Assembly (NCBI RefSeq): GCF_900177415.1
Contig: NZ_FXAF01000001.1
Coordinates: forward strand, 64,501-128,500
Length of the DNA stretch: 64,000 nucleotides
Origin: Xaviernesmea oryzae
GTDB lineage: Bacteria; Pseudomonadota; Alphaproteobacteria; Rhizobiales; Rhizobiaceae
Direction: 5' to 3'
Positions 14,586-15,635 of the stretch are shown here, in pieces. How positions within the stretch are numbered: position 1 is the first letter of the stretch; each line of letters starts with the position of its first letter. The notes beneath the pieces were generated by a model. It saw only the letters and a program-made list of their open reading frames with translations, did not search any database and was not told the origin of the DNA. The position numbers and the translations under genes are program-made.

Positions 14586-14876
14586 ATGTCCCGTGTGTGC
14601 GAACTGACCGGCAAGGGCGTTCAGACCGGCAACAATGTAAGCCACGCCAACAACAAGACCCGCCGCCGGTTCCTGCCGAACCTCTGCCAGGTCACGTTGA
14701 TCTCCGACGCTCTCGGCCAGCGCTTCCGTCTGCGCGTTTCCGCGCATGCCCTGCGTTCCGTCGAGCATCGCGGTGGCCTCGATGCCTTCCTGCTGAAGTC
14801 CGACGAGAACGAGCTGTCGATGCGCGCCCGCCTGCTGCGCCGCCAGATCGTCAAGAAGACCGCCGAAGCCGCTTAA
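14586..14876 (+). CDS. rpmB: 50S ribosomal protein L28
   Basis: A 96-residue basic protein of the large ribosomal subunit. It opens with [20 protein letters not shown] and continues with [11 protein letters not shown], typical of L28 in Alphaproteobacteria, which are longer at the C-terminus than the E. coli form. The start at 14586 is fixed by the conserved [10 protein letters not shown] and AAAGG eight bases upstream. It is a single-gene unit with its own strong promoter; the queuosine precursor transporter gene follows after 120 bases. Confidence 0.96.
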
Positions 14877-14970
14877 TCCGCTTCGCGCCACATCATCCGG
14901 CTTTGAGGAGGCTTGAACGGATAAAACTGGACAAGCCTTTTCTCTTGCCCTTATATTCACAGCACTCCAA

Positions 14971-15000
14971 CTGGTGGCATCACCCAGGATAAAAAAATGC
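14971..15000 (+). ncRNA. candidate preQ1-I riboswitch overlapping the start codon
   Basis: The RNA can form the H-type pseudoknot of the preQ1-I class. P1 pairs CUGG (14971-14974) with CCAG (14984-14987). Loop 1 runs from U14975 to A14982, and C14983 is in the position that pairs with the ligand. P2 pairs GCAU (14977-14980) with AUGC (14997-15000), across a nine-base A-rich linker (14988-14996), the same linker length as in the Thermoanaerobacter aptamer as I recall it. The P2 3' strand is the start codon itself, and the Shine-Dalgarno AGGA (14986-14989) overlaps P1. Ligand binding should therefore block translation directly. P1 is one pair shorter than usual, the main weakness. Confidence 0.72.
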
Positions 15001-15635
15001 AGATGACCCGCTTTACCCTCATTTATGCCCTGCTCATGGCGGCCGTCGTCGTCGCCTCGAACTTCCTGGTCCAGTTCCCGGTCGTCGGCACGTTCTGGGG
15101 CATTGCCCTCGGCGATCTTCTGACCTGGGGCGCCTTCATCTATCCCGTTGCCTTCCTGGTGACCGACCTTGCCAACCGGCAGTTCGGGCCTTCGGTCGCC
15201 CGCCGCGTCGTTCTCGCAGGCTTCGTCGTCGGCGTGACGCTGTCCTTCCTGGCTTCGGCGCCGCGCATCGCCATTGCCTCCGGTACGGCCTACCTGATCG
15301 GCCAGCTTCTCGACATTTCCGTCTTCAACCGGCTCCGCCGCCAGACCTGGTGGCGCGCGCCGCTCGCCGGCTCCCTGCTCGGTTCGGCGCTCGACACGCT
15401 GCTGTTTTTCTCGCTCGCCTTCGCCCCCGTCTTCGCCTTCATCGGGCCGAACGAGGATTTCGCGATCGCATCGGCTCCGATCCTCGGCGTCTTTGCGGCG
15501 GAAGCTCCGCGCTGGATTTCCTGGGCTCTCGGCGATCTCGTCGTCAAGATCCTGGTGGGCGTGGTCCTGCTGCTGCCCTATGGCGCGCTGATGAACGTGC
15601 TGAAACCGATGCCGCAGGTGGCGCCGGCTCGCTGA
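14997..15635 (+). CDS. yhhQ: queuosine precursor transporter (YhhQ / VUT family, DUF165)
   Basis: A 212-residue inner-membrane protein with about six helices. It carries the family segments SNFLVQFP, FLVTDLANRQFGPSVARRVV and AGSLLGSALDTLLFFSLAF. E. coli YhhQ imports preQ0/preQ1, the precursors of queuosine in tRNA. The start at ATG 14997 has AGGA seven bases upstream; a second in-frame ATG at 15003 is possible. The candidate preQ1-I riboswitch that includes this start codon gives independent support for the substrate. The gene ends 23 bases before the convergent phytase-like gene. Confidence 0.9.
   Translation: MQMTRFTLIYALLMAAVVVASNFLVQFPVVGTFWGIALGDLLTWGAFIYPVAFLVTDLANRQFGPSVARRVVLAGFVVGVTLSFLASAPRIAIASGTAYLIGQLLDISVFNRLRRQTWWRAPLAGSLLGSALDTLLFFSLAFAPVFAFIGPNEDFAIASAPILGVFAAEAPRWISWALGDLVVKILVGVVLLLPYGALMNVLKPMPQVAPAR

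Follow-up and report, generated by a model that had tools for sequence, protein, structure and literature searches.

Type III of the preQ1-I riboswitches was reportedly defined in a survey of 2014 by McCown and colleagues. For the E. coli structure, the consulted part of PMC10622847 gives P2 as the pairs U11-A28, C10-G29 and C9-G30, with A28 in the ceiling of the binding pocket; preQ1 is contacted by U6, A27 and a cytidine of L2, while U7 and C8 form triples with A27-preQ1 and A28-U11. The consulted parts of two papers of the Wedekind laboratory from 2023 and 2024, PMC10622847 and PMC11625349, call type III almost exclusively gammaproteobacterial or assign it to the Pseudomonadota, name AAGG as the buried strand and describe the mode of control as full burial of the Shine-Dalgarno sequence. 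In the machine-read table of a 2022 survey (PMC9495176), Brucella abortus is marked only in the first (glycine) column and carries no mark for preQ1. A preQ1-I element that embeds the start codon was not described in the literature searched, which consisted mostly of titles and the openings of abstracts and lay apart from the 2014 type III survey.

The window analysed here is a stretch of 64,000 nucleotides from Xaviernesmea oryzae. According to the comparisons presented below, the 30 nucleotides at positions 14971-15000 are very likely to represent a type III-like preQ1-I riboswitch that acts on translation and uses the start codon of yhhQ as its expression platform.

The yhhQ leader of the window

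Direct reading of positions 14971-15000 gave the letters CUGG-U-GGCAU-CA-C-CCAG-GAUAAAAAA-AUG-C. The features of the locus and the evidence on which they are based are as follows.

14586-14876, plus strand: rpmB (ribosomal protein L28), the upstream neighbour, outside the switch (direct reading; family matches)
14910-14941, plus strand: terminator-like hairpin GGCUUG...CAAGCC followed by UUUU, assigned to rpmB by its position and located 5' of the aptamer (direct reading)
14928-14957, plus strand: promoter-like TGGACA-18-TATATT (consensus match only: 10 of 12 positions agree, where a shuffled region is expected to contain 0.2 such sites)
14971-14974, plus strand: 5' strand of P1, CUGG (direct reading; fixed in the leader pattern, with 104 of 110 family leaders matching)
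14975, plus strand: U equivalent to U6 of E. coli (direct reading; T in all three loop classes)
14977-14980, plus strand: 5' strand of P2, GCAU, the anti-start-codon (direct reading; covariation)
14983, plus strand: C immediately preceding CCAG, the counterpart of the C that determines ligand specificity (direct reading; invariant column)
14984-14987, plus strand: 3' strand of P1, CCAG (direct reading; required by the leader pattern)
14986-14989, plus strand: Shine-Dalgarno sequence AGGA, half inside P1 and 7 nt before the AUG (direct reading)
14988-14996, plus strand: A-rich L3 linker GAUAAAAAA of nine bases (identical in 149 of 176 leaders; its last A corresponds to A27 of E. coli)
14997-15000, plus strand: 3' strand of P2, AUGC, composed of the start codon (14997-14999) and the first base of codon 2 (15000) (direct reading; covariation)
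14997-15635, plus strand: yhhQ, queuosine precursor transporter, the putatively regulated gene (PF02592 and TIGR00697 matches)

The loop between CUGG and CCAG comprises the nine bases 14975-14983, namely U 14975, GGCAU 14976-14980, CA 14981-14982 and C 14983, and both U14975 and C14983 fall into invariant columns of the family alignment (56 distinct rows). AUGC at 14997-15000 is complementary to GCAU at 14977-14980, so that P2 can form. The sequence-only reading of this DNA had proposed a preQ1-I element before yhhQ with U and C at the ligand positions and an A-rich linker, and these assignments are supported by the direct reading and by conservation in the family; likewise, the two strands of P1 (CUGG/CCAG) and of P2 (GCAU/AUGC) were found complementary as proposed, and the AGGA does overlap the 3' strand of P1. 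With four pairs, P1 remains below the 5-6 pairs given for preQ1-I in the consulted part of PMC10622847. The P1 3' strand is directly preceded by AC in the window (CAC-CCAG), a feature that is not universal in the relatives, since bases 12-13 vary across 176 leaders (CA 117, AC 21, TA 17, AA 10, CT 7, longer 4). Ten-base loops instead of nine were observed in L089, L093, L100 and L141, with CAAC or CACC before CCAG and with the letters of P1 and P2 intact.

When up to 3 mismatches were allowed, the full motif (CTGGTNNCATNNCCCAGNNNAAAAAAATG) had a single copy in the window, and no copy arose in 100 shuffles. The looser pattern GGTNNCATNNCCCN{8,18}ATG has six copies in the organism's own 6.07 Mb genome, and only the copy at yhhQ is part of the full element. 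Nested folding of the region, calculated with a program blind to pseudoknots, was weaker than that of most shuffles (z = +1.22; an equal or better fold in 178 of 200 shuffles).

In Rfam, this class is represented by RF00522 (PreQ1), and a search with this model, suggested along with the sequence-only reading, gave no match at the window element at E values up to 10; its best hit in the own genome (15.3 bits) lies at another place and under the cut-off. The model exceeded its cut-off in only one of 14 control genomes, and Rfam release 15 misses the type III leader of E. coli (L166, 9176-9211) at E values up to 1. The lack of a match is therefore uninformative and was set aside as a test of membership, since RF00522, which fails on the E. 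coli leader, does not define type III. The missed E. coli leader is in itself a gap in the Rfam library.

With respect to the gene, the frame 14997-15635 matched PF02592 with 84.7 bits and TIGR00697 with 98.4 bits (cut-off 50.95), and the element is thus positioned before a gene of the preQ0/preQ1 transporter family. A second in-frame ATG is present at 15003-15005 (codon 3 of yhhQ); it is probably not the start, because homologues such as that of L003 begin at the P2 ATG and have the same length without possessing the second ATG. The own genome also contains queF and tgt matches above the family cut-offs, and preQ1 is therefore probably made and used in this organism.

The hairpin at 14910-14941 was not reported on the plus strand by a terminator scan of the region, the loop limit of which is 8. 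The promoter-like sequence would start the RNA a few nucleotides upstream of P1; an equal element was not evident by eye upstream of the aptamer in 15 relatives. In two loci, L199 and L220 (Pseudochrobactrum and an uncultured Bartonella), P1 is immediately preceded by a terminator-like hairpin with a T run, which its position assigns to rpmB, so that no space is left for a promoter between them.

Distribution and pairing of the element among relatives

The yhhQ gene was detected in all 57 genomes of the genus that were searched and the element in all 30 genus leaders that were read. At the family level, 143 of 151 genomes yielded a yhhQ match; the element is present in 104 of 110 leaders read and in 28 of 32 further genomes examined by pattern scan, in which the coordinates place each copy at yhhQ. 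In total, the element was found in 132 of the 142 examined yhhQ-bearing family genomes, a number that takes in all such genomes except G181. Since the leader pattern requires CTGG, CAT and CCAG, these letters are constant partly by construction. The six leaders of the family that fail the pattern were read directly, the four misses of the pattern scan being known from that scan alone. Six of these ten misses belong to genomes of 1.1-2.6 Mb (G111, G061, G166, G148, G146 and G062). The leaders read that lack the element despite the presence of yhhQ are L090, L152, L155, L161, L162 and L163, four of them in genomes of 1.2-2.6 Mb (G111, G061, G166 and G148); L162 contains a degenerate copy.

Within the order but outside the family, 27 leaders were read, and none matched the pattern. 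When 199 genomes of the order were searched by pattern, the element was recovered in six, all of the own family. Pattern matches in five genomes of other families of the order were rejected, as their letters show that they are not the element. Named carriers among the matches listed include Rhizobium, Neorhizobium, Shinella, Sinorhizobium (the record of S. saheli, L219, carries the leader), Mesorhizobium, Phyllobacterium, Pseudochrobactrum, Falsochrobactrum, Aureimonas and Bartonella. A scan starting from the motif showed, in 80 loci among the matches listed, that every match ending in AAAAAAATG precedes yhhQ (28 by blastp and L196 by tblastn); for those of the 80 listed loci that lack AAAAAAATG, blastp detected no YhhQ frame downstream. 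Another 40 scan loci were searched for yhhQ by tblastn only.

A class-wide covariance search with model R1, the filters of which lose weak matches, yielded six of 385 genomes at E values of at most 0.01, namely the own genome and five others. The five other matches (E values of 0.001-0.006) were read by eye and rejected, as none shows the element. One of them, L176, shares only AGGATAAAAAAATG and has no matching loop, which indicates that the ribosome-binding part can occur alone. This match thereby lends something to the explanation that the locus is a conserved ribosome-binding site of AGGA, A-rich spacer and AUG with chance complementarity upstream and without a riboswitch; translation alone would conserve these three parts, and folding no better than shuffles and the silence of Rfam point in the same direction. 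The upstream CUGG and U..CAU..C are, however, as constant as the ribosome-binding site itself, and the pairing data described in the following also stand against it.

For the analysis of pairing, 209 loci with yhhQ were collected, 176 of which have the leader; 45 of the 176 were derived from the motif scan, and some of these may duplicate other genomes, as that of N. galegae does. Three loop classes were distinguished, designated GG, GC and UC. With the GG loop UGGCAU, all 102 leaders have AUGC, and with the GC loop UGCCAU, all 12 have AUGG; behind the UC loop UUCCAU (n = 62) AUGA occurs 30 times, AUGC 19 times, AUGU 13 times and AUGG never. A hold-out set of 28 further leaders gave the same picture, with C behind GG in three of three cases, G behind GC in three of three, and A (10), C (9), U (3) or G (0) after the AUG of 22 UC loops. 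The base after ATG in the mechanically defined frames of at least 200 amino acids in the window is G in 31, C in 26, A in 22 and T in 9 cases. The first base of codon 2 thus tracks loop base 8 without exception in the 176 leaders and the hold-out set, and the fourth pair of P2 covaries with the loop class. This result supports the earlier claim that the start codon (14997-14999) is part of the P2 3' strand. The expectation of covariation across relatives held for P2 (102/102, 12/12 and 0/62 in the three classes) and failed for P1.

On a quick YhhQ tree calculated with the N-terminus excluded (199 rows, 166 with leader; two short proteins and identical proteins left out), 10 changes of loop class are required. 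Supported branches provided only three independent pairs, with none against, and the median p of 0.5 reflects an underpowered test, since a sign test on three pairs is unable to reach significance. The covariation score of the structure exceeded that of all 500 shuffles and of slid versions (56 distinct rows). In alignment A2, 30 of 55 distinct rows, which constitute the UC class, do not form the fourth P2 pair, and the number of further pair types (3) is below that of shuffles (3.9). The covariation table was used for rhizobial rows only, because the row of E. coli is wrongly placed in both alignments, A1 and A2. Inside the family, P1 showed no covariation; its letters are invariant, and although the pattern demands them, only six of the 110 family leaders read failed it. 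This invariance would be understandable from the fact that the P1 3' strand carries the Shine-Dalgarno sequence.

The very strong conservation of the primary sequence over the family would also be expected of a site recognized by a regulatory protein or a small RNA, in which case the block would not be a metabolite aptamer. We regard this as highly improbable in view of the compensated changes in P2, with GG, GC and UC loops being exchanged while pairing is kept, and of the position of the block, which matches that of the type III preQ1-I leaders at yhhQ of E. coli and its relatives.

Relation to the E. coli leader and predicted mode of control

The yhhQ leader of E. coli (L166, 9176-9211) reads UUGGG-UUCCCUCAC-CCCAA...CAAAAAGG, and its linker GGUUAAUC is that given for the wild-type sequence in the consulted part of PMC10622847. 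The rhizobial leader of the UC class reads CUGG-UUCCAUCAC-CCAG-GAUAAAAAA-AUG. The nine-base loops UUCCAUCAC and UUCCCUCAC differ in a single base, C in E. coli versus A at position 10, and this exchange is matched in P2, where a C-G pair with the Shine-Dalgarno strand AAGG corresponds to an A-U pair with AAUG. When both bases were left open in a phylum-wide pattern search, matches were obtained in 80 of 398 genomes. Thirty loci of this search were fetched, 20 of them located before yhhQ and 10 without yhhQ; the 20 yhhQ leaders combine A10 with AAUG in 10 cases and C10 with AAGG in 10, and mixed combinations did not occur. The short pyrimidine-rich loop of type III has a counterpart with one change in UC-class relatives (UUCCAUNAC), whereas the window loop (UGGCAUCAC) has the same length but contains G7G8. 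The P2 3' strand of the window is AAUG with the start codon and not the type III Shine-Dalgarno strand AAGG, and an SD-like AUGGA is confined to six relatives. These comparisons refine the sequence-only reading: the element appears to correspond to type III, the loop of E. coli recurs in its close relatives with a single, compensated base exchange, and control in a few relatives seems to act through the Shine-Dalgarno sequence instead.

Mapped onto E. coli, the A of the AUG is equivalent to A28 and the A before it to A27; some relatives have another base in place of A13, and U7 and C8 correspond to G7 and G8 in the window's loop class, which therefore differs from the solved pocket. The exchange of U7 and C8 makes it conceivable that, in the GG class at least, an aptamer derived from preQ1-I now prefers another 7-deazapurine such as preQ0 or queuine, and YhhQ and TGT of Bartonella henselae salvaged queuine as well as preQ1 according to the consulted part of PMC11570991. 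Such a change of ligand is nevertheless quite improbable, as the bases that recognize the ligand or form the roof of its pocket in E. coli (U6, C14, U11 and the A preceding P2) are unchanged and as GG and UC loops precede the same gene in related lineages.

The relatives also differ in the Shine-Dalgarno sequence. A G follows CCAG (AGG in P1) in 170 of 176 leaders, and the AUG of P2 is in the yhhQ frame in all 170. This G is lost in six leaders that retain the aptamer, namely L196 (record of Aureimonas altamirensis), L287, L329, L336, L356 and L378. A fifth G-C pair is added to P1 in all six, and in five the P2 AUG is out of the yhhQ frame. In these five, the yhhQ frame contains an ATG or GTG at 13-16 nt further downstream, with the GGA of AUGGA at Shine-Dalgarno distance, so that AUGGA probably serves as the Shine-Dalgarno sequence of the putative later start; the sixth, L329, has a GTG in frame at codon 6. 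The out-of-frame P2 AUG opens an overlapping ORF in another frame. Accordingly, the aptamer is kept even where the AUG is no longer the start. This observation, together with a loop only one base away from that of the E. coli aptamer, adds to the tracking of loop base 8 by codon 2 and makes it extremely improbable that the locus is a mere ribosome-binding site.

The overlap of AGGA with P1 raises the question of which pairing acts. That the covering of the Shine-Dalgarno sequence by P1 is the main action and the pairing of the start codon a by-product is a variant of the preferred explanation, with which its odds overlap, and we consider it unlikely. The base before P1 in the 170 leaders with the Shine-Dalgarno sequence is C in one and T in nine, and only there would a fifth pair, C-G or U-G, be possible; the background 5-12 nt upstream of P1 contains 35% C and 31% T. 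It thus looks as if more pairing of AGGA were avoided. Moreover, the CAU facing the AUG is kept in all three loop classes, although this is partly demanded by the pattern.

From these comparisons we infer that the start-codon element binds preQ1, that the pseudoknot forms in the cell and that control has the following sign. When preQ1 is scarce, the leader would be open, AGGA would recruit the ribosome and YhhQ would be made. When preQ1 is plentiful, it would sit between P1 and P2 and contact U14975, C14983 and A14996, and P2 (GCAU/AUGC) would close over the bound ligand, the A of the AUG forming the U-A pair that roofs the pocket as in the E. coli structure. With the initiation codon taken up by P2 and half of the Shine-Dalgarno sequence by P1, initiation would be blocked and import would fall. 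In favour of this explanation, the consulted part of PMC3568095 states that added preQ1 (300 nM) rescued queC and queF mutants of S. meliloti in HeLa co-culture.

It is likely that the rhizobial leaders constitute a distinct Rhizobiaceae subtype of preQ1-I, in which the AUG serves both as aptamer strand and as roof of the pocket, which is separated from E. coli by one compensated pair exchange (C-G to A-U), and in which an Aureimonas-like branch has apparently reverted by means of AUGG(A) as Shine-Dalgarno sequence. If this is true, one aptamer swaps expression platforms without being rebuilt, and the leaders represent a natural experiment on the evolution of expression platforms. The element would be a widespread Rhizobiaceae counterpart of type III, missed by the Rfam model, in which the start codon is the switched element; the entire ribosome-binding site of Shine-Dalgarno sequence, spacer and AUG is included in about 30 nt, codon 2 of a protein would be constrained by RNA structure, and it becomes testable here whether occlusion of the AUG suffices for a riboswitch.

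Comparison with known systems

The preQ1-I type II element of Thermoanaerobacter tengcongensis (Tte) resembles the window element in its H-type pseudoknot, in the AC before P1 and in the loop bases G8, C9 and A10, which are those of the GG class. Its loop is one base longer than that of the window. It differs in that P2 takes in two bases of the Shine-Dalgarno sequence and not the start codon. Translational riboswitches such as add of Vibrio vulnificus, as described in the consulted part of PMC10907184, likewise render the start codon inaccessible, but there the AUG and the ribosome-binding site lie in a sequester hairpin that is separate from the aptamer, and the AUG is concealed when ligand is absent, whereas in the window the AUG is itself the pseudoknot strand of the aptamer. 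The closest relationship is that to the type III preQ1-I element at yhhQ of E. coli (PDB 8FZA; PMC10622847, consulted in part), which shares the gene, a P1 closed by G-C and a nine-base loop, and which also has the AC before the P1 3' strand, the A-rich linker and the A before P2. In contrast to this element, the 3' strand of P2 in the window is the AUG start codon and not the Shine-Dalgarno sequence AAGG, the Shine-Dalgarno sequence is located in a P1 of 4 instead of 5-6 pairs, and the loop is of the GG class with G7G8 in place of U7C8, along with a fourth P2 pair that extends into codon 2.
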